Source: a virus. Taken from it: a DNA stretch of 21,776 nt. Within the stretch, counting starts at the first letter, position 1. Each line of letters begins with the position of its first letter. The position numbers and the translations under genes were made by a program. The notes under the pieces were generated by a model. That model searched no databases, was not told where the DNA came from, and saw nothing but the letters and a program-made list of their open reading frames with translations. Shown in pieces: positions 3,494 through 17,894 of this stretch. The stretch covers positions 1 to 21,776 of IMG/VR virus record IMGVR_UViG_3300023251_000019. One strand, given 5' to 3'.

Positions 3494-4276
3494 TTACTTG
3501 ATTAGTTCTGCTTTTCCGCCGGTGAAATTCTCCCAGCGTTTTACGGTTACGTCGCAGGCCTTTTCTTTGTCCTTTTTAAATTCAATCTCGTCTATCCTGT
3601 ACAACTCATATCCATTCATTTTACACCAAGCATCTTTCTTTTTGTCTCTCGCTACAGCCAATAGCAACGAATGCCAATATGAACCATCGGCCTCAATGAG
3701 AATCTTTAAGCCTTCAATCTTAAAATCAAAACTCCATTTTTTTACTTTGAACTGACATGAAAGGGGAATGCCCTTATTTTTTAGGTACTCTCCCACTCTT
3801 TCCTCATAATGTGATACTCGTCTATTTTTCAAATAACATCTATGCGAGCAATGGATTTGTTTTCTATCACCAAAATCAGCTACAGCTCTAAATCTTTTAT
3901 TGCAGACAGGACAATAAGCTACTCTGGCTCTCTGCAAATGTGGATAGTGTCTACCCTTTTTATTACTTGGCGTCCCCTTCTGAGATAAAGCCTTACACTC
4001 CATAGAGCAATATTTTACGTCAAGCCGGTCAACTGGCCCAAACGTTTTACCGCATTGCTTGCACACGAGAAACGTTTGTGGCCGATAAATCTTTTTACAT
4101 TCAATGGAACAAAGTTTTTTATTTCTTTTACCACTGAACTCTTTTCCGCACACAACGCATATTCTGGTTTCAACTCCATGACACTCCTTACATCTTGCAG
4201 TATATCCATTCTCCCGTGACGTTTTATAAAACTCAGAGAGTGGCTTTACCTTTCCGCATTTTGCACACTTCTTCAT
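3494..4276 (-). CDS. Zinc-finger PD-(D/E)XK (Vsr-like) endonuclease, probable homing endonuclease
   Basis: The product has 260 residues; the start ATG at 4276 follows GAGG and overlaps the 3' end of the methyltransferase gene by 44 bases. Four consecutive cysteine modules are visible: C4/C7 with C29/C32, C40/C43 with C56/C60, C72/C75 with C90/C94, and C122/C125 with C143/C147. These are treble-clef or ribbon-type DNA-binding fingers. The C-terminal nuclease part has FDFKI (D184), then LIEADGSYWH (E195, D197, W201, H202), as in Vsr, DUF559 and EDxHD endonucleases. The gene is visibly more AT-rich than the replication genes. Free-standing homing endonucleases of this build are known in phages; mobility here is inferred. 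A phage repair or restriction nuclease is the alternative. Confidence 0.75.
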   Translation of the reverse strand: MKKCAKCGKVKPLSEFYKTSRENGYTARCKECHGVETRICVVCGKEFSGKRNKKLCSIECKKIYRPQTFLVCKQCGKTFGPVDRLDVKYCSMECKALSQKGTPSNKKGRHYPHLQRARVAYCPVCNKRFRAVADFGDRKQIHCSHRCYLKNRRVSHYEERVGEYLKNKGIPLSCQFKVKKWSFDFKIEGLKILIEADGSYWHSLLLAVARDKKKDAWCKMNGYELYRIDEIEFKKDKEKACDVTVKRWENFTGGKAELIK

Positions 4277-5477
4277 AGGGGATCGCCTCTTTATCGTTAG
4301 TAGATAAAAAGACTTTACCATCAATCCCAACGAATTGCAAGTACCTATTTATTATAACATCGCAGTACAAACAATCTATCTCCATGAGGTACGCTGTCCG
4401 TCCTGTCTGTTCGGCTGCTATGAGGGTGCTGCCTGAACCGCCGAAGAGGTCGGCAATAACATCATCTTCTTTGCTGAATTTTTCAATAAACCACCTCACA
4501 AGAAGGATTGGCTTTTGTGTTGGGTGTTTCCTGCCGTCGCTGTGGTCAAATTCCTGCTCAGTCCCTAAAATGCCGCTCCACGTTATGCGTGCAATTTGCC
4601 TGTGGTGTCTTGCCTTACTCCAACAAAGCTCAAACTCACTTGTTGACCATTCCATGTCTTCAATGCCCTTGCGCTTATCCCAAACAATCCAACTCCCTTT
4701 GTTTTTATCAATCAAGCGCTCCGCATAATAATCAGCACCCCACCAAAATTGTTCCTTGCAATACTTAAATAATTCCTGGAGAAAAGAGGGGTCAAAATCT
4801 TTATCGTCTGCAATGACTGGAGAATAATTATTGATCTTTGCTTGCCAGTTCCCTTTTTTATGTCTAAGTGTATCTGACATATTTGGGTTATATTTCATCC
4901 CATACGGCGGATCGACAAAGAGGACTGCCGCCTTCACCCCGTCCATCAGCCTTTCCACATCCTCCGCCTTTGTCGAATCGCCGCACATTACCCTGTGCTT
5001 CCCCAGCAACCAGATATCGCCCGGCTTCGTGATAGCCACCTTCGGGACTTCGGGGACTTCGTCCGGATCTGTCAGGCCCTCTTTAATATCAAACAGCTTC
5101 TCAATTTCCACGCCATCAAAGCCTGTCAACTCCAGGTCGAATCCCTCGAGGGACAGAAGCTTGAGTTCGTTGGCCAGATCTTCTGGGAGCCAGTCGGATT
5201 CATTCGACCGGTTGTCCATCAAGCGGAAGGCCCTGACCTGGGCGTCCGTCAGGTGGTCCATGCGCACAGTCGGTACGCTCTCCATCTTGAGCTTTTTCGC
5301 GGCCAGAAGGCGACCGTGCCCGGTGATGATCACGTTCTCTTTGTCCAGCAGAATCGGGACCTGAAATCCATACTCCTGGATCGACTGCGCTATCTTGTTA
5401 ACCTGGTTCCGTGGATGTGCTTTCGCGTTGCCGGGATACGGCTTGATCGCCTCGATTTTCATGTTTTCTATTTTCAT
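4233..5477 (-). CDS. ParB-like domain fused to DNA methyltransferase
   Basis: The product has 414 residues. The start ATG overlaps the primase stop (ATGA); the open frame extends upstream to 5909 only as a shadow of the primase gene. Residues 7-90 form a ParB/Srx-type domain (IKPYPGNAKAHP, then GHGRLLAA at 53-60). The methyltransferase part follows: DPPYG at 189-193, HPTQKP at 318-323, FGGSGS at 345-350. Motif IV before motif I marks the beta class, modifying N6-adenine or N4-cytosine. ParB-methylase fusions are common on phages and mobile elements, where the methylase often has no cognate endonuclease. The 5' half (ParB) is GC-rich like the primase, while the 3' half is AT-richer like the endonuclease, suggesting a mosaic gene. 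Confidence 0.9.
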   Translation of the reverse strand: MKIENMKIEAIKPYPGNAKAHPRNQVNKIAQSIQEYGFQVPILLDKENVIITGHGRLLAAKKLKMESVPTVRMDHLTDAQVRAFRLMDNRSNESDWLPEDLANELKLLSLEGFDLELTGFDGVEIEKLFDIKEGLTDPDEVPEVPKVAITKPGDIWLLGKHRVMCGDSTKAEDVERLMDGVKAAVLFVDPPYGMKYNPNMSDTLRHKKGNWQAKINNYSPVIADDKDFDPSFLQELFKYCKEQFWWGADYYAERLIDKNKGSWIVWDKRKGIEDMEWSTSEFELCWSKARHHRQIARITWSGILGTEQEFDHSDGRKHPTQKPILLVRWFIEKFSKEDDVIADLFGGSGSTLIAAEQTGRTAYLMEIDCLYCDVIINRYLQFVGIDGKVFLSTNDKEAIPYEEVCKMRKGKATL

Positions 5478-6802
5478 ATTATAAAGTTCTCTCCTGTAAT
5501 TTTCTCTGCCGGGTGCGCCAGGATATAATCTGTCACTTCCGGGACCTGGAACACCAGTTGATTGATGCGGCCACCGACGTACTTGCCGTGGCGCAGAATG
5601 GTAAACCGGGCCGGCTCGTTGATGATTACGACGCTGGGGTTGTTTTGTAACAGCTGATAGAGTTCCCTGACGGCGGGATGCAAAGATCCGGTCCCGGTAA
5701 TCAGAACGCGGGCCTCTGGCTTTGCCGGTTCGGGCGCTGGGATGTGAGATGTTGCCGGAGCGGCTTGTTTGTCGTCGATGATCAGTGCCGGTGCGAGCCC
5801 TGCTTTTATCCAGCAATCCAAGTCTATCCCCAACTCGTAGGCCTCTCCGGGGTCTTTCCCCCGGGACACCGGCCAGCGGTCGTTTTGATCGAAGTGCTCG
5901 TCCCACCACCTGCAGGCAGCGGATCCGGCTTTGTCGAAGTCGAGCGCGTTGAGGATCTGCAGCGATCCTTTGAGGCTTTCGTAAACCACGGCGTCCGGTT
6001 TCCCATGGGATGTCCCGACGGCCACGGCGCCGGCGATCTGGTTATTCGCGACGACGGCGACGGCATCGAGTTCTGATTCGACGATGACGGCGGCCCGGCG
6101 CTGCGGCTCGAGGTGCATAATGTGAGCGGAGGATCCGGGGATGACGTAGTAGCGAGGCTCTCCCTCGGGCCGGCGAATCCGGACCCGGTGAACGGTGCCG
6201 TCGATGATCACGGGGATCACCAGGCCGCGAGGGATCCAGAGGACCCTGGGGCGGCCGTTGTCTTTTGTGATCACCGGCAAACCCCAGGCGGTGCGGGCGC
6301 GGTAAAGGTCTTTCCCTTTTTCGCCGGGGTTCCATCCGAGGCGGTACCGCTCTGCAGCGGCCCGGTCGATCCCGCGCGCGGCGAGCCAGGAGAGGACCTC
6401 GGCGTTCTTCAGGAGCTGCCCCTGGGCCCAGACTACCAACGCCTCCGCTTTTGTCTGCCACAGGTCGGTCGGAGACTGGTGCTCCGCCGGTGTGAATTCC
6501 ACTGGTTCAATCCTGCGCTGTGCCGGGCCAAACTGCCGGGGCTGATCTGGCACATCGATGTTGAGATAATCGCAGGCCTCCTGGAAGGACATCCCCTCAA
6601 AGTCGCGCAGGAACTGAATCGTGTCGCCGGCCTTTCCACACCCCCGGCACCAGTAGCTGCCCTCGCCCTGGTTCTGCCCGGGCCAGACATGGAAGCGATC
6701 ATTACCTCCGCAGCCAGGGCACGGACCCTGCCACTCGCCGCCGTTGGTCGATGAGACCTTCCGAAGCTTCACTTTTTTCTGGGCCAGATCAAGGATGTTC
6801 AT
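5474..6802 (-). CDS. CHC2 zinc-finger/Toprim DNA primase
   Basis: The product has 442 residues. The ATG at 6802 follows GAAGGTG; a TTG in frame at 6853 is less likely. The N-terminal CHC2-type zinc finger uses C28, C31, C52 and C55, with the usual hydrophobic WCRGCGKAGDTIQFL end. The Toprim part shows the acidic motif VESELDA (E242, D246) and LDFDKAG (D288, D290), with KDPGE near 316-320. This is the DnaG-like layout of phage primases that make RNA primers. It sits downstream of the SF3 helicase and the helicase-domain paralogue, so the replication genes form one module. The C-terminal 100 residues are not assigned; they may contact the helicase. Confidence 0.9.
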   Translation of the reverse strand: MNILDLAQKKVKLRKVSSTNGGEWQGPCPGCGGNDRFHVWPGQNQGEGSYWCRGCGKAGDTIQFLRDFEGMSFQEACDYLNIDVPDQPRQFGPAQRRIEPVEFTPAEHQSPTDLWQTKAEALVVWAQGQLLKNAEVLSWLAARGIDRAAAERYRLGWNPGEKGKDLYRARTAWGLPVITKDNGRPRVLWIPRGLVIPVIIDGTVHRVRIRRPEGEPRYYVIPGSSAHIMHLEPQRRAAVIVESELDAVAVVANNQIAGAVAVGTSHGKPDAVVYESLKGSLQILNALDFDKAGSAACRWWDEHFDQNDRWPVSRGKDPGEAYELGIDLDCWIKAGLAPALIIDDKQAAPATSHIPAPEPAKPEARVLITGTGSLHPAVRELYQLLQNNPSVVIINEPARFTILRHGKYVGGRINQLVFQVPEVTDYILAHPAEKITGENFII

Positions 6803-6821: not shown

Positions 6822-7247
6822 TTAGCCGATCGAAATGTTTCGTTTTCTGGCAATGAGTATCATTCGATTAAGACCCCTTAATTGACTAAGTAACCATTTG
6901 GTCATTTTAAGGGCCTCTCGGTCATCATCATCGTTGATTGTGATATCCAAGTCTAATATGGTTTGTTTGACCGCTTTGATATTCTTTTGAATCATTACGC
7001 GTAATGATTTTTCATCAACTTCATTATCGTTCAGTGTGATCCCAATAAATATAATGCGGCCCTCTGCCTTATTCATTGTGTACTTCTGGCCGAGTCGCTT
7101 TCCTACCCAGGCGGCGCCCGGTTGTTTTCTGCCCATGTTAGCGTGATACCAGGAACTAAAATTGTCATAGAATTGCCGAAATACTACCCGTGCGTCCGGA
7201 TCCACAATACAGCGCTCCTGGATGAAGTCATTAAGTACGTCTTTCAT
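6822..7247 (-). CDS. Stand-alone paralogue of the helicase C-terminal domain
   Basis: The product has 141 residues; the ATG at 7247 is 9 bases after GGAG. Residues 1-73 align without large gaps to residues 456-527 of the SF3 helicase encoded upstream. Examples: VLNDFIQERC against LLADFIDECC; SSWYHANMG against VSWYHDNIG; AAWVGKRLGQKY against GTWFGKQLSQKY; IIFIGITLND against VIYIGITLTD. That region is the small winged-helix-like end of D5/P4 primase-helicases. The remaining 68 residues are a new charged, helical extension with an acidic NDDDD patch. It arose by partial gene duplication and then diverged. A role as origin-binding or helicase-modulating protein is plausible but inferred. Confidence 0.85.
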   Translation of the reverse strand: MKDVLNDFIQERCIVDPDARVVFRQFYDNFSSWYHANMGRKQPGAAWVGKRLGQKYTMNKAEGRIIFIGITLNDNEVDEKSLRVMIQKNIKAVKQTILDLDITINDDDDREALKMTKWLLSQLRGLNRMILIARKRNISIG

Positions 7248-7707: not shown

Positions 7708-7709
7708 CT
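7290..7709 (-). repeat. GGGAGGGTT iteron-like direct repeats
   Basis: Exact AACCCTCCC (minus strand GGGAGGGTT) occurs at 7311-7319, 7490-7498, 7581-7589 and 7700-7708, with one-mismatch forms at 7290-7298, 7692-7700 and 7482-7490. All point the same way. The pairs at 7482-7499 and 7692-7709 form a longer repeat, AACC(G/C)TCTAACCCTCCCT. The last copy covers the helicase stop codon. The same nonamer also occurs at 16-24 and 711-719 in the methyltransferase repeat. Confidence 0.75.
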
Positions 7710-9291
7710 AATCGGTGAGCGTGATCCCGATATAAATGACGCAACCTTCGGACTTTGACTTGTCGTATTTCTGGCTGAGCTGCTTGCCGAACCAGGTTCC
7801 GGATGGTTCCTTGGTACCGATGTTGTCGTGGTACCAGGAGACAAACCGGCCGTAGAGAACCGAGGCCTTGCCCTTCGCCCCCGGCTCCCGGAGGCAGCAC
7901 TCGTCGATGAAGTCTGCCAGGAGATCCTCGTTGCGCCGGTATTTCTCGGTGGCGTCGGTGACTTTGCGCGGCGGTTTAAGGCCGTGTTTCTGCCAGAGCA
8001 GACAGCCCCGGACCAGCCAGGCGAGGATCCCGGGCGCCTCTTTCAGCAGCTGCTGATCAAGATCGAGTATCGCTCGGCGCTCCGTCGCGTCCTGGGGATC
8101 CCGGTTGACGAATGACAGGGTGAAGGGGATCAGATGGAGCCGCTCCCAGAAGGCCTTGTCGTTTGCCGGCGCCTGGGGTTGTGAGTTGGTCATCAGGAAT
8201 AGTTTATGCGTTGGCTGAAACCGCGTCGAATATTTATCGTGAGGGTTCCGGCCATTTAATTCATCTTTACCGGTCAGCCATTTGACTTTCGAAGCGCTGA
8301 ACTTCTGGCCCTCGTCGGTCTCAGAGGCGAAGGTCAAGCGCATTCCCTTGAGACTCATGACATCGGGCGATGGTCCGGATGAGGCCTTGACGTATTTCGA
8401 GGATAAAAGCATTTCAGAGGGAATAGACCCGGCGAGGGATCCCATGACGTAGCTGATGGTCTCAATGATCAGGCTCCGGCCGTTCCAGCCGCCCTTCCCG
8501 TAGAACACCGGGAAAACCTTCTCGTGGACCAGACCGGTCATGGCATACCCGAAAAGGCGCTGAATATATGCCACCATTTCCTCGTCGCCGCTGAATATCT
8601 CGAGTAGCGTTTTCTCCCAGAGGACCGCGGGTGCATCGATGCTTTTGAAATCAACCGGGCTGGCCATCGACAGATAGTCGCCGGGGCGGCCATCGATAAG
8701 CGTCCCGCGCACGAGATCGATGACACCGTTCGCGCAGGGAAAGAGCTTCGGCTTCTGATCGAACTCGTCGCCGGTGATGGCCAGGGGATCCGTGATCGTG
8801 TGTGCGAATTTCAAACAGGCGGTCCGGCGGCGATCGTCCCGGAGCTTGCTTGCCCGGTTGAGCAGGTCGTGTTGTGACTTTCTGAGCTTCTTCACCTTCG
8901 CCTGGCCTTCATCATCGCCATCAACCACAACCCCGGCAATCTCCCCGGCGAGCCGTTTATATTCTCCCAGATATTGCTGCACTACGAGCTCGACAGCGGC
9001 GAGCGATCGTCCCATAATATCACGCTGCCAGCGGTGGCCGGTCCACTCAAACCACTCCTGCATGTTTTTACAGTAGAGAAGTTTATCGCGGAACAGAGTC
9101 GCGTACATCGTGCCATCGCCCAGGGCGTTCGCAAAGATACAATCGCTAATAAATTTACTGTCAATCTTCGGTCCGGAATCAGGAGCCGTGGCCGGAGCCT
9201 GCGCGGTCTCCTCATCGATGCGCTCCTGGACTTGCCGTTTAATATCATCCACAGAAGTGGCCTTGCCGCCTGTCCCATCCGAATCACTCAT
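7708..9291 (-). CDS. D5/P4-type SF3 replicative helicase
   Basis: The product has 527 residues. The start overlaps the upstream small gene's stop (TATGAGTGA) and is preceded by GAGGTTG. An N-terminal D5_N-type region (about 150-260) precedes the SF3 ATPase core: P-loop GKGGWNGRS (265-273), Walker B-like MRLTFASETDEG (317-328), sensor-type KLFLMTNSQ (363-371) and FWERL with probable arginine finger R384. The C-terminal winged-helix-like domain (456-527) is duplicated in the next gene. Such enzymes unwind DNA at phage or plasmid origins. No N-terminal primase domain is present; priming is supplied by the separate CHC2/Toprim gene. The P-loop lysine is replaced by arginine (codon CGG). Confidence 0.9.
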   Translation of the reverse strand: MSDSDGTGGKATSVDDIKRQVQERIDEETAQAPATAPDSGPKIDSKFISDCIFANALGDGTMYATLFRDKLLYCKNMQEWFEWTGHRWQRDIMGRSLAAVELVVQQYLGEYKRLAGEIAGVVVDGDDEGQAKVKKLRKSQHDLLNRASKLRDDRRRTACLKFAHTITDPLAITGDEFDQKPKLFPCANGVIDLVRGTLIDGRPGDYLSMASPVDFKSIDAPAVLWEKTLLEIFSGDEEMVAYIQRLFGYAMTGLVHEKVFPVFYGKGGWNGRSLIIETISYVMGSLAGSIPSEMLLSSKYVKASSGPSPDVMSLKGMRLTFASETDEGQKFSASKVKWLTGKDELNGRNPHDKYSTRFQPTHKLFLMTNSQPQAPANDKAFWERLHLIPFTLSFVNRDPQDATERRAILDLDQQLLKEAPGILAWLVRGCLLWQKHGLKPPRKVTDATEKYRRNEDLLADFIDECCLREPGAKGKASVLYGRFVSWYHDNIGTKEPSGTWFGKQLSQKYDKSKSEGCVIYIGITLTD

Positions 9292-12322: not shown

Positions 12323-13396
12323 CTACGTGGTCACGCCTTCTGTATCCGGCACACCTTGAACAGTAGATGAGCACTTCGGTTTCAGCGTAATGCCTTCCAG
12401 CACTTTCTTCCTCAGCCTGTATGTGTTCGCGTGTTTGCAGTGCGCAACCCAACTCTGGACAGCTACAATGACTCTGTCCGGGGTTATCTTCCCTCCCCGG
12501 TAAAGTTTCTGTAGTGTCCGGATCTTCCGCTTTGCACGTTTTGCATTGGATGCCCTCAATAGTCGATGTGTCGCCCAGGTATGATACCCGAGAAAATCTA
12601 TACCCCTGCTTTCGACGGGGAATATCTGTGTTTTCCTGTTCAACTGCAGCCTTAAACTATGTTGTAAATAGTCCGCGATATCATTTATGACGTGATGCAG
12701 GTGCGTTTTGTCCGGCGCCAGGATAATGAAGTCGTCCATGTAGCGAATATAAAACCGTTCGCGAAGCGTGTACTTGACAAGCTCATCCAGCTCGTGGAGG
12801 TAGACGTTGGCAAAGAGCTGGCTTGTCAGGTTGCCGATCGGGACACCAGTATCAGAGCCGGTCGAATCAATAATAACGTCGCAAAGCCATAGCGTTTCCG
12901 GACAGGCGATGCGCTTTCGTAATAATCGCTTGAGGGTGTCGTGATCGATCGAGGGAAAGTATTTTGATATGTCGGCTTTCAGGCAGTAGACGCGGCCCCA
13001 GTTGCGTTTGCAGCGTCTCAAAAGTGCGGTCAGTTTGTCTGCCGCGGCATGTGTTCCCTTGCCCGGGCGGCACGCATAGGAATCTGCGATAAAGCGGGAC
13101 TCCCATATAGGCTCAACAATATTACAAAGCGCGTGATGGAGAACCCGATCCCTGAATGGCGCGGCGGTTATCAGCCTCTTCTTGGGCTCATAAATATAGA
13201 AGGTGTTGCATCGGCCAGGCGTGAATGTCTTCCAGATCAGCTCGTTCTGGATCTGGATCAGGTTCTCTTCCAGGTGGCAGCTGAAGGCGAGGACGTTCTC
13301 TTTGTATCGTTTCCCCTTCCGGGCCTTCTGGTATGCCAGAAACAGGTTGCCGAAGTTGTATATCCGGGGATAAAGCCCACCGTATGTTTTCGCCAT
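12323..13396 (-). CDS. Diversity-generating retroelement reverse transcriptase
   Basis: The product has 357 residues; the ATG at 13396 is preferred over the GTG four codons upstream. Motifs run in order: RDRVLHHAL (82-90), catalytic D142 in ADISKYFPSID, the DGR-type motif IGNLTSQ (187-193) in place of the QG motif usual in retroviral and group II intron enzymes, the catalytic YMDD (219-222), and the thumb-proximal FLGYHTW. There is no maturase or endonuclease domain, which separates it from group II intron proteins. The enzyme copies the TR RNA into cDNA with errors at adenines, working with Avd. It lies 159 bases downstream of the TR, the usual DGR order. No clear terminator follows. Confidence 0.95.
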   Translation of the reverse strand: MAKTYGGLYPRIYNFGNLFLAYQKARKGKRYKENVLAFSCHLEENLIQIQNELIWKTFTPGRCNTFYIYEPKKRLITAAPFRDRVLHHALCNIVEPIWESRFIADSYACRPGKGTHAAADKLTALLRRCKRNWGRVYCLKADISKYFPSIDHDTLKRLLRKRIACPETLWLCDVIIDSTGSDTGVPIGNLTSQLFANVYLHELDELVKYTLRERFYIRYMDDFIILAPDKTHLHHVINDIADYLQHSLRLQLNRKTQIFPVESRGIDFLGYHTWATHRLLRASNAKRAKRKIRTLQKLYRGGKITPDRVIVAVQSWVAHCKHANTYRLRKKVLEGITLKPKCSSTVQGVPDTEGVTT

Positions 13397-13555
13397 ATAT
13401 GATCTCACAAGAGTGTGGCCTGCGATAGCTTTCGTTTCCTACTTGCCATCGCGGGCCTGTTTATATATTTTGCCTTGCGGCACGGACTGAGAGCCTGACT
13501 TTGAAAAGTCACTGCCGGAGAAACCGTAATTTCTTCGATCTATAATATTATCACT
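13397..13555 (-). ncRNA. DGR RNA 3' spacer with hairpin (between TR and reverse transcriptase)
   Basis: In the studied Bordetella phage DGR, RNA downstream of the TR folds and primes cDNA synthesis. Here the 159-base gap contains a perfect inverted repeat TGACTTT-TC-AAAGTCA at 13496-13511 (minus strand), realistically a 6-base-pair stem with a 4-base loop. Reading the TR in the target's frame stays open to 13439, but there is no sign of a real gene. RNA function is by analogy. Confidence 0.45.
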
Positions 13556-13664
13556 GTCACAGGCGAAGCGGCACCCGTTGTTCGTGTTCACGTTCCACGG
13601 ATAGTTGTTCACGTTCACACACCGGGAACCGGCGTTCACGCCGTTGTTCCAGTTGCCGCCTGCA
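13556..13664 (-). repeat. DGR template repeat (TR)
   Basis: This 109-bp block matches 14037-14145 except at 13579, 13587, 13593, 13594, 13614, 13615, 13647, 13648 and 13653. All nine are T on the plus strand, that is adenine in the template RNA sense. Of the 26 adenines in the block, 22 lie in 11 AAC codons when read in the target frame. It starts 7 bases after the avd gene ends. This is the non-mutated master copy. Confidence 0.97.
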
Positions 13665-13670
13665 GCGCCC

Positions 13671-14003
13671 TCAACCCAGAGACTTCATCCAGCCGCCCAG
13701 AAGGCGGCCTATTTCGTTGATCCGTTTGCTTGTCTCCGCATAACTATTATGAGACAGATATTTCCTGTCATGGGAAAACCTGATCAGCATCCTCAATTCT
13801 TCGATTGACACATCGATATCGTACAGCAGTGGCCGCTTGCTCCGGCTTTTATTCGCCCGGATAATGCGCCGCGCTATATCGATAATGCAGTTTTTGACCT
13901 GTGTACAAAGAACAAACTTTTCATATTTCGGGAACCTGTCTATGATTGGAAACAAATAAATCATGAGATCATATACCTTCTGATAGATTACAAGATTTTC
14001 CAT
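13671..14003 (-). CDS. avd: DGR accessory variability determinant (Avd)
   Basis: The product has 110 residues, almost entirely helical, matching the length and build of Avd-type four-helix-bundle proteins (same fold family as 23S rRNA intervening-sequence proteins). Visible helices include VIYQKVYDLMIYLFPIIDRFPKYEKFVLCTQVKN, then IIDIARRIIRANKSRSKRP, then DVSIEELRMLIRFSHD and a C-terminal helix with RINEIGRLLGGWMKSL. Avd forms a basic pentamer that binds the DGR RNA and the reverse transcriptase and is needed for mutagenic homing. The position between target and TR is typical. The binding site is weak (GGGAATCTG). Confidence 0.9.
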   Translation of the reverse strand: MENLVIYQKVYDLMIYLFPIIDRFPKYEKFVLCTQVKNCIIDIARRIIRANKSRSKRPLLYDIDVSIEELRMLIRFSHDRKYLSHNSYAETSKRINEIGRLLGGWMKSLG

Positions 14004-14027
14004 TAAAACAGATTCCCAGATATCAGA

Positions 14028-15134
14028 TTACAGAGAGTCACAGGCGAAGCGGCACCCGTGGTTCGTGCTCACGCGCCACGGATAGTTGTTCACGCCCACA
14101 CACCGGGAACCGGCGTTCACGCCGTTGGGCCAGATGCCGCCTGCAAGGACGGCATGCAGTGAGGTAGCACCGTACATATACAGCTGCCCGACACCCTGGC
14201 CCGTCATGGAGTCCTGCCAGCCACCAGTTACCTGACTGGGATCGAGCATAAATTCATCCAGCCACTCCAGGACATTTCCCACGCAATCACAGAGATTGTA
14301 TGCGCTGACAGCGTTGACGACGGTGCCGGCGGGATTGCGACCGGCATTACTCGTATATGACCAGGCATTGACATTGTCTCCGTCGTTTCCCTGGGGACTT
14401 CCTTCTGCACCCTGGAGCCATTCGGACAGTGACATCATGCGTTTGCCTGTCCGCTTCGCCAGCTCGTTAAAATGGTACCAGTTGAGTGATTCCGTTCCGG
14501 TGAGGGGATTGGCATTATAGATTGACTTCGTCGTGCCGGTGAGTAATTTCCCCGTTGACAGTGTTATCGCGTCATCGACGGATGCCAGATATATATCCAC
14601 CCAGATTCCGCCAACCTTCGCCATGCCTTCCGGTGCGCAGGTCGGACGGTTTTTGAGATCCCAGACGGAGTTTGAGAGGATCGCCGACGATACATCATCC
14701 TCCCAGCCAGCGCCGTAAGCGCCATTTGTCACATCAAGTGGTATCCAGTTTGCATTCACAAGGCGGACGCGGCCATAGTGGAACCCGCCGATCTTGCGCG
14801 ATGTGTTGGCATCGTAGCCCGCGGGATAGGTTGTAGCCGCCGAGAGCAGGCCGACCAGCGAGCCGCCATCGTCGCAGAGGTAGACATAATAATCGGTGCC
14901 GTGGGCCTTCGCCCCCGTGTCGAGATCGGCATCAAGGTCGAGGTCAAAGTCGGTATCCAGCACCCACCATTTGCTGTTGAGGTTGAGCCCCATGACGTTG
15001 GAGCCCGTTACCGTGACCACCGTCGCGGACTTGTATTCCACGAGGGTGTTTTTTGGATTGAGGTTCATGTTCGCCAGGATCGCGGCGAGGTCTGAGTTCT
15101 GTGATGCTATTTGTGTGACCAGTCGATTTGTCAT
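14028..15134 (-). CDS. DGR target protein, FGE/C-type-lectin-fold receptor-binding candidate
   Basis: The product has 368 residues; GGAGG is 9 bases before the ATG, which overlaps the previous stop (TAATG). The N-terminal 200 residues carry tail-fibre-like beta segments (for example WWVLDTDFDLDLDADLDTG). The C-terminal part is a formylglycine-generating-enzyme/sulfatase-modifying-type C-type lectin fold: MMSLSEWLQGAEG, then LCDCVGNVLEWLDEF (281-295), then the conserved end GSRCV ... GCRFACD. Residues 331-366 are the VR. Variable positions relative to the TR are I334, P336, G347, R354, S356 and H359. No formylglycine catalysis is implied; the fold presents a binding site. Position after tail-tip genes suggests a host-receptor-binding tail protein. 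Confidence 0.92.
   Translation of the reverse strand: MTNRLVTQIASQNSDLAAILANMNLNPKNTLVEYKSATVVTVTGSNVMGLNLNSKWWVLDTDFDLDLDADLDTGAKAHGTDYYVYLCDDGGSLVGLLSAATTYPAGYDANTSRKIGGFHYGRVRLVNANWIPLDVTNGAYGAGWEDDVSSAILSNSVWDLKNRPTCAPEGMAKVGGIWVDIYLASVDDAITLSTGKLLTGTTKSIYNANPLTGTESLNWYHFNELAKRTGKRMMSLSEWLQGAEGSPQGNDGDNVNAWSYTSNAGRNPAGTVVNAVSAYNLCDCVGNVLEWLDEFMLDPSQVTGGWQDSMTGQGVGQLYMYGATSLHAVLAGGIWPNGVNAGSRCVGVNNYPWRVSTNHGCRFACDSL
14037..14145 (-). repeat. DGR variable repeat (VR)
   Basis: This is the 109-bp counterpart of the TR, ending two codons before the target stop. Nine substitutions relative to the TR change six AAC codons: N to I, P, G, R, S and H. Five AAC codons remain unchanged (N337, N340, N349, N350, N358). 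The 3' part (GGGTGCCGCTTCGCCTGTGAC region) is identical in both copies and adenine-poor, as expected for the homing initiation end. No GNRA hairpin is obvious just downstream. Confidence 0.97.
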
Positions 15135-16331: not shown

Positions 16332-17894
16332 TCAAAGCACAGTGTAATCTTCGCCACACGCGAAAGATCCATTGTAATAATGTATTCCGTCATATCTGAA
16401 ATCGTTTAAGATTGCCTGCTCGGAAATCGCGAGACTTTCCGGAGCGGTTTTCTGAATGTATTTTGTTATCACTTCGGAAATCGAGGCTCCTTCAGAAACC
16501 GCCTTTGTTATTTCTTTCGCGATGACCTCGCTAACCGCAACGCTCTCCGCCAGGTTTTTTGTAACGCCCTTTGCAATAACCTCCGTGATATTGATGATCT
16601 CCTCTATTGTACCTTTCTCGATGTATTTCGATATAGTCTCGGCAATCGAAACACCGTCTGTCAGGCTTTTCGTGACGCTCTTTGCAATGGTCTCCGTGAC
16701 GGCCAGCTGCTCTGCCACGTTTTTTGTGACGCTCTTTGCGATAACCTCCGTGATATTGACAATCTCCGCCACAGACTCGCTGAGCGAATGATAAGACACG
16801 CCCTTGTCGATAAGCTCAAAGTTTATCGTTTTGTCATTGATGGCCGTTACCTTTGTCAGCACCTGGACTATCCGATCCGCGAAGGGGAGCTGCGCTGTAT
16901 CGTAGAGCGTGGAATGATTCAGCAGAACAAAATCGCCCTTCTCAAAATGCAGGTTTCGCAGTGTGACCTCATCGAACCGGATCATCCATATCGGGTCCTT
17001 CAGGCGGTTGATGATTATCGCCTGCACCGCCGCGATCGTGGTCGCGTCACGGCACCACTTAAAATCAAAGGTCTTGATCTTGTCGCCGTGGACGTTCCGG
17101 CTTAGCTGATCCGCGGTAGAACTGCCGTCATCACCCTCCTCGTATTTGAATAATCTATAATTCCAGGCATATTGAACTTCCGCAATATTACACAGGTTTT
17201 TTTCATCGCGTGTGGCGGACAGTTTCTTTATGTTTCGCTCCAGGAGCTCGCCCTTCCAGGCATACACCTGGTCGGTCGTGTTCATCTGGATGACAATATT
17301 GTCCTGGTGATTCTTCCACCATTCGCCGTGAAATGAATAGAGGATCTCCGACAGCGTGGTCCCGATAGAGCTGTCTCCGGTGATCAGGCCCGCGGCCTTG
17401 TAATCTGTGCAGACGTCTTTCGCTTTTTGCAGGGCGAAGGCATCGAAATCCGCAGAGGCTCCGCCAGCGAGGTTGACGACAAAATCTTCCAGGATTGTAA
17501 CTGGGTTTTCTATCAGCGCGGCGCCATCGTTCTTGCCTTTACAGCGAATTGATATCAGTTCATTTAACGCTTGATCATCAGTAAAATTGATTATGGCAAC
17601 ATGCGCCCCATTTTCATCCGTGTGGTCATCGACAATGGTGTATCCTGCGGAATCAATCGCCACGTTAGCGTAATTATAAACCGTAAAGTCGTTGCCGTTT
17701 CCGGCGCTCAGGATGGTATGATCCGCGATAAGGTAATAGAAGTTGACCGTGTCGATGCAGGGGCAGTTCCACAGGCCATAGTTGCCGCCCTTTATATCGC
17801 CATACACGGCGGGGAGGTAATCGGTCGGCATGCGCGGGTTTGCGTATCGCCACGCCCGGCCCAGGCTGTATGTGTCTTGGAGATTGGTGCTCAT
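16332..17894 (-). CDS. Tail hub/tip protein with repetitive C-terminal region
   Basis: The product has 520 residues. Residues 1-370 contain mixed alpha/beta segments with YSFHGEWWKNHQDNIVIQM, KIKTFDFKWCRDATTIAAVQAI and LHFEKGDFVLLNHSTLY, a style seen in siphovirus tail-hub or tip proteins. Residues about 372-494 are seven units of about 18 residues (pattern xxEIVNITEVIAKSVTKN). The C-terminal 26 residues (RYDGIHYYNGSFACGEDY) are aromatic and form a small end domain. The start follows AGGGCGGTGTAATA. The repeats could form a rod or spacer that carries the end domain. Confidence 0.7.
   Translation of the reverse strand: MSTNLQDTYSLGRAWRYANPRMPTDYLPAVYGDIKGGNYGLWNCPCIDTVNFYYLIADHTILSAGNGNDFTVYNYANVAIDSAGYTIVDDHTDENGAHVAIINFTDDQALNELISIRCKGKNDGAALIENPVTILEDFVVNLAGGASADFDAFALQKAKDVCTDYKAAGLITGDSSIGTTLSEILYSFHGEWWKNHQDNIVIQMNTTDQVYAWKGELLERNIKKLSATRDEKNLCNIAEVQYAWNYRLFKYEEGDDGSSTADQLSRNVHGDKIKTFDFKWCRDATTIAAVQAIIINRLKDPIWMIRFDEVTLRNLHFEKGDFVLLNHSTLYDTAQLPFADRIVQVLTKVTAINDKTINFELIDKGVSYHSLSESVAEIVNITEVIAKSVTKNVAEQLAVTETIAKSVTKSLTDGVSIAETISKYIEKGTIEEIINITEVIAKGVTKNLAESVAVSEVIAKEITKAVSEGASISEVITKYIQKTAPESLAISEQAILNDFRYDGIHYYNGSFACGEDYTVL
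16405..16790 (-). repeat. Coding tandem repeats, about 54 bp x 7, in the hub gene
   Basis: Units (approximate core): NITEVIAKSVTKN, AVTETIAKSVTKS, SIAETISKYIEKG, NITEVIAKGVTKN, AVSEVIAKEITKA, SISEVITKYIQKT and a partial AISEQ. Units 1 and 4, 2 and 5, and 3 and 6 are most alike, so the present array is a duplicated triplet. One unit is one residue longer (unit 4). Confidence 0.85.

Follow-up and report, generated by a model that had tools for sequence, protein, structure and literature searches.

The DNA analyzed here, IMG/VR virus record IMGVR_UViG_3300023251_000019 (21,776 bases in full, referred to as the window), almost certainly carries a complete, canonical Mtd-type phage diversity-generating retroelement (DGR) with a tail-linked target gene. 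Directly 3′ of its variable repeat (VR) lies an array of four YTG triplets, and we consider it fairly probable that this complete DGR is combined with an array that tags the recipient site and is probably read by the complex of reverse transcriptase (RT), accessory variability determinant (Avd) and DGR RNA. With more than 30,000 DGRs known (PMC8144416), the element is one more of a known class, and the array-type, hairpin-less target site is its less ordinary part. The array is important because target finding by the mutated cDNA is incompletely understood (PMC12875486).

A complete DGR with a tail-linked target

All DGR genes of the window are on the minus strand, in the order target, VR, avd, template repeat (TR), and RT, which is identical to the gene order of BPP-1 (Table 1). 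TR and VR form a direct repeat that aligns without gaps over 109 nt at 92% identity, and 9/9 differences fall at TR adenines on the coding (minus) strand. As adenine occupies 26 of the 109 positions, the chance probability is 7e-7. A repeat arising by chance was excluded. The differences alter 6 of 11 AAC codons (to I, P, G, R, S, and H) and create no stop codon. All 10 AAC codons of the BPP-1 TR (Mtd residues 344 to 368) recur at window residues 334 to 358 with a constant offset of 10, and thus diversification probably affects the same surface positions. A first-pass annotation of the window had listed the nine difference positions and had described a complete DGR with target, VR, Avd, TR, and RT intact in canonical order; the positions and coordinates proved exact, and the RT, Avd, and target open reading frames (ORFs) are intact. 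That annotation was also right that the phage DGR is canonical and its target tail linked, and it was silent on the absence of a BPP-1-type hairpin and on the conserved array after VR.

The RT carries IGNLTSQ and YMDD, in agreement with the DGR pattern (I/V/L)GxxxSQ plus YxDD, and both motifs lie, as predicted, in ORF 12323-13408. It matched PF00078 (RVT_1; 7.4e-23) and phrog_1423 (1e-146), and its best match among solved structures was BPP-1 bRT (8ub7; 7e-68). The catalytic aspartates had been numbered D221/D222, which holds for the ATG start at 13396 and fails for the GTG start at 13408, from which they are D225/D226. Group II introns, retrons, and DRT were rejected, as the RT scored far under the NCBIfam cutoffs of those families, and many weak PADLOC matches fit a generic RT, with the DGR features being decisive. 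The intact Avd ORF matched PF22296 (bAvd; 1.9e-33) and the NCBIfam model DivGenRetAVD (NF033474), exceeding the cutoffs of both. The target matched PF21916 (mtd_2nd; 9.9e-25), FGE-sulfatase (2.6e-5), and the phrog_11262 tail protein (1.5e-60), and query residues 35 to 368 aligned with Mtd in the PDB (1yu4; 8.4e-16), the N-terminal ~34 residues being unmatched. Homology to the solved Mtd, bRT, and Avd structures is the basis on which folds are assigned to target, RT, and Avd, and by homology to Mtd the VR is predicted to lie inside a C-type-lectin fold. The genes upstream of the target are tail genes, with one tail-fibre and one tape-measure match, and together with the Mtd homology and the phrog_11262 match they bear out the predicted tail linkage of the target.

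A YTG array follows VR and recurs across DGRs

The TR/VR homology ends abruptly at 14037/13556, and similarity falls at once on both repeat flanks. Past that end the VR side carries the repeat array and the TR side does not. From the end of identity the window reads TCT-CTG-TAAT-CTG-ATAT-CTG-GGAAT-CTG, with the CTG triplets at 14033-14031, 14026-14024, 14019-14017, and 14011-14009, spaced by 7, 7, and 8 nt. When both strands of the window were searched, this was the only chain of at least four YTG triplets at 7/8 spacing. The first CTG is the final codon of the target, the target stop TAA occupies 14030-14028, and the remainder of the array is noncoding; the 7- to 8-nt period is no codon effect. 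L075, the closest relative that has a VR, is about 75% identical to the window in DNA and holds the array in register, though its spacer letters differ.

Other DGRs were surveyed starting from a first fetch of 147 loci, in which 119 sequences (window included) had a TR/VR-like pair, a few being refetched copies of this virus. The exact 7-7-8 pattern with at least three of four YTG was found at 40 of 85 nonredundant sites, versus 0.9 expected from shuffles and none after TR, and the 7-7-8 spacing ranked first among 512 tested. With gaps of 7 or 8 allowed, at least four units followed VR for 22 of 64 RTs (less than 60% identical), versus 0.11 expected from dinucleotide shuffles and again 0 after TR. 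The same test, fixed beforehand, was applied to a hold-out set of 23 RTs that were less than 65% identical to the first set, and 17 were positive, versus 0.02 expected. On an RT tree made by a quick method, with many weak branches, at least three units were present in 48 of the 59 members of one clade (support, 88) and in 0 of 30 outside it. Named phages with the array are BalMu-1, VP58.5, phiARM81mr, and ZX4290. Units were more alike within than between loci (0 of 2,000 permutations), and in some lineages the units are all TTTG type or all AACTG type, a uniformity that reading by a lineage-specific partner would predict. Avd was detected at all array loci, and no array was present at any locus without a detected Avd (Fisher P = 6e-4). 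No earlier description of the YTG array was found in the DGR literature searched, coverage of which was incomplete, so priority is uncertain.

A different repeat was seen in a DGR group outside the YTG clade (L126, L046-L056, L064, L071, L137, L138, and L141), where ATC triplets at 7- to 10-nt spacing follow VR. In an exploratory test on these related loci, at least three units were present in 10 of 16, with 0.06 expected and 0 after TR. Separately, Caudoviricetes vir525 (L156; Methanosarcinales host) has a Mtd-like target, a TR, and an RT, with avd neither annotated nor detected and with no array.

The array lies at the IMH position, and the window lacks a hairpin

In BPP-1, a 21-bp initiation of mutagenic homing (IMH) element at the end of VR differs at five sites from the IMH* of TR and determines in which direction transfer runs (PMC3240598; PMC4891356). 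Anchored on the common TGTGAC, the BPP-1 IMH TCTGTGAC-CAC-CTG-ATTC-TTG aligns with the window sequence CCTGTGAC-TCT-CTG-TAAT-CTG. The first two array units thereby coincide with the BPP-1 IMH, and two of the five IMH/IMH* mismatches abolish the first CTG in TR. From its position, VR specificity, and conservation, we infer that the array may be the general, full form of the IMH.

Immediately downstream of VR, BPP-1 also has a GC hairpin (8-bp stem, GAAA loop; seen in L149) that is required for efficient homing and that the authors propose to be conserved (PMC3240598). A BPP-1-type GC-rich inverted repeat with a GRNA loop is absent from the window by several search approaches: no stem of at least 5 bp was found in 14065-13940, and the best local fold after VR was −1.0 kcal/mol, versus −12.2 in BPP-1. 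Most array relatives have a hairpin, often GRNA looped, after the array, and no stable one exists at 20 of the 66 array loci, namely, the window plus about 19 more. Because residual homing occurs without the hairpin and many relatives lack it, we do not count it among the defining features of DGRs as a whole. Hairpin/cruciform target sites (Guo et al. 2011; PMC3240598) resemble the window in having a cis element just 3′ of VR and differ in consisting of inverted repeats with GRNA loops. The VR-hairpin distances in that study, 4 to 34 bp, would leave room enough for an array, and a text search of the paper found no mention of direct repeats. An array-hairpin trade-off was considered and rejected: loci with fewer than three units nearly all have a hairpin (13 of 15 at −6 kcal/mol), but this is a trend only (Fisher P = 0.10 to 0.22), and most array loci also have one. 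In a further observation, Synechococcus phage S-CBS3 (L160, 4478-4510) has a mtd homologue, perhaps a former DGR target, with no RT annotated nearby and no array, and a GGCGC-GACA-GCGCC hairpin follows the gene.

Proposed role of the array and alternative explanations

By analogy with BPP-1, the avd-TR-Sp-RT region (Sp being the spacer part of the DGR RNA) would be transcribed, Sp would recruit RT and Avd, and RT would copy TR with errors at adenines. The cDNA would then replace VR at the end of the receptor-binding gene and give rise to new attachment surfaces. The replacement site would be marked by four YTG units 7 to 8 nt apart, beginning at the end of TR/VR identity. Because the array follows VR and never TR, we propose that it makes VR the recipient and leaves TR the protected donor. 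The BPP-1 IMH would be a shortened two-unit version followed by a hairpin, and the window locus would have the full array and no hairpin. A more tentative extension, which we rate as possible and somewhat short of an even chance, is that 3 to 6 YTG units at 7 to 8 nt were the ancestral recipient tag of the large clade containing BPP-1 and are read unit by unit by RT-Avd (for example, one per protomer of the Avd pentamer), with the BPP-1 IMH a degenerate two-unit remnant and the hairpin an add-on absent here. Reading of evenly spaced triplets by a ring-like Avd pentamer is speculation.

Several observations weigh against a recipient tag read by the RT-Avd-RNA complex. BPP-1 functions with at most two units and a hairpin, and the full array is unneeded there. 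In Mtd-type targets the first CTG also encodes a conserved C-terminal leucine, which calls for caution. Within-locus similarity of units could come partly from base composition, and the association of array with Avd is confounded by phylogeny and supports Avd as the reader only weakly. Six tests of pairing between the array and RNA of its own DGR showed no locus-specific complementarity (lowest permutation P, 0.03; not significant given the number of tests), and base pairing as the mode of reading is therefore not supported. Finally, no VR variation was found within this virus: the only other contigs with the region were identical over their length, VR included, and a search of IMG/VR for population variants with an adenine-degenerate VR pattern returned an identical contig only. 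Such contigs speak for neither activity nor inactivity.

An alternative is that the array is a weakly pairing or protein-bound stretch that holds the target single stranded for cDNA invasion, the job of the hairpin, and does no recipient tagging. The hairpin-less array loci, and the hairpins at nearly all loci with fewer than three units, would fit such a substitution; however, the lack of a significant association, the many loci with both elements, and the location of the array at the IMH position rather than the hairpin position make it unlikely. Less probable still is that the window holds a plain BPP-1-type DGR whose array is unrelated to homing and serves as a signal for translation or transcription between target and avd (e.g., for coupling avd expression). 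In the window, the array sits between two same-strand genes, overlaps the stop codon of the target, and ends 5 nt ahead of the start of avd, as such a signal might, but across loci it holds its place immediately behind VR, whereas its distance from avd changes and a hairpin often intervenes, and it never follows TR. Moreover, in L111 the first conserved gene to follow VR is RT, not avd. That the array is a functionless relic copied with the DGR would account for its tracking one RT clade but is very improbable, as the YTG triplets and spacing are kept among RTs less than 60% identical though intervening letters change, L075 keeps the register, and the shuffle and TR controls are empty. We conclude that a recipient-site tag remains the preferred explanation of the array.

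Evidence for homing

Differences in the 119 TR/VR-like pairs of the survey are mostly adenine directed. Related locus pairs with RT regions more than 99% identical differ in VR at 13 to 21 sites, nearly all TR adenines (e.g., L082-L085 and L016-L098), and such turnover between near-identical elements indicates that they are active in nature. The VRs of L075 and the window differ at 25 sites, 17 of which are TR-adenine positions, which supports homing since the two split. The first-pass annotation had proposed past and probably continuing homing. The adenine-only TR/VR differences and the L075 comparison make past mutagenic homing at the window locus well supported, and continuing homing in this virus is, with its other copies identical, only plausible.

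Features of the locus and comparison with known systems

Table 1. DGR features of the window.
Feature	Position	Strand	Basis
Target gene, Mtd-like tail/receptor-binding protein, 368 aa, VR in predicted C-type-lectin C terminus	14028..15134	−	PF21916, phrog_11262, PDB Mtd 1yu4
VR, variable repeat, 109 nt	14037..14145	−	92% identity to TR; 9 differences, all TR adenines
Direct-repeat array just 3′ of VR	14009..14033	−	Sole chain of at least four YTG at 7/8 spacing in window; kept in relatives
avd, accessory variability determinant, 110 aa	13671..14003	−	PF22296 bAvd, phrog_3206, NF033474, PDB 4dwl (9.5e-5)
TR, template repeat, 11 AAC codons in VR frame	13556..13664	−	Repeat with VR
Sp, putative spacer part of DGR RNA between TR and RT, about 147 to 159 nt by RT start	13397..13555	−	Fold; place as in BPP-1, length similar
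Reverse transcriptase, IGNLTSQ and YMDD, GTG start 13408 or ATG start 13396	12323..13408	−	PF00078, phrog_1423, 8ub7

Sp is structured (fold z score of −2.4; folded stretch, 13388-13555), and its function at the window locus is presumed from BPP-1. A search for known RNA families gave no match. The window resembles BPP-1 (mtd-avd-TR-brt) in its Mtd-type target, Avd, RT motifs, adenine-directed changes, AAC codon positions, and place and length of Sp (144 nt between TR and brt in BPP-1). In contrast to BPP-1, it has four YTG units rather than two, no GC hairpin after VR, a TR/VR tract of 109 rather than 134 nt, and no imperfect IMH* past the identity; its target is ~28% and its RT 42% identical to those of BPP-1. 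VP58.5, BalMu-1, phiARM81mr, and ZX4290 share the RT/Avd family and the YTG array after VR but, unlike the window, have a stable hairpin after the array, GRNA looped in most.

Detailed DGR work rests on BPP-1, a member of the array clade without the full array. A motif that is short, alignable, and confined to VR would account for the asymmetry of donor and recipient, would help to locate target genes distant from their RT, and would offer a simple design rule for DGRs as gene diversifiers. The proposal names positions to mutate and is thus testable.

Other observations concern gene content. A tandem duplication within a DGR is seen in L063, where two avd copies (4835-5170 and 5392-5727) share the N terminus and a partial TR-like sequence is present as a second copy. 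In the window, repeats of 88% identity (16545-16602 and 16710-16767) within minus-strand ORF 16332-17894, a probable tail gene, encode repeated EVIAKxxTK-like segments. The small minus-strand ORF 6822-7247 looks by eye like the C terminus of the D5-type primase/helicase at 7708-9291 (minus strand), a possible partial duplication. Minus-strand genes at 7-705, 3494-4330, and 4233-5909 encode two N6/N4 DNA methylases, of which one carries a weak ParB-like domain, and a nearby MTES_1575-type nuclease.
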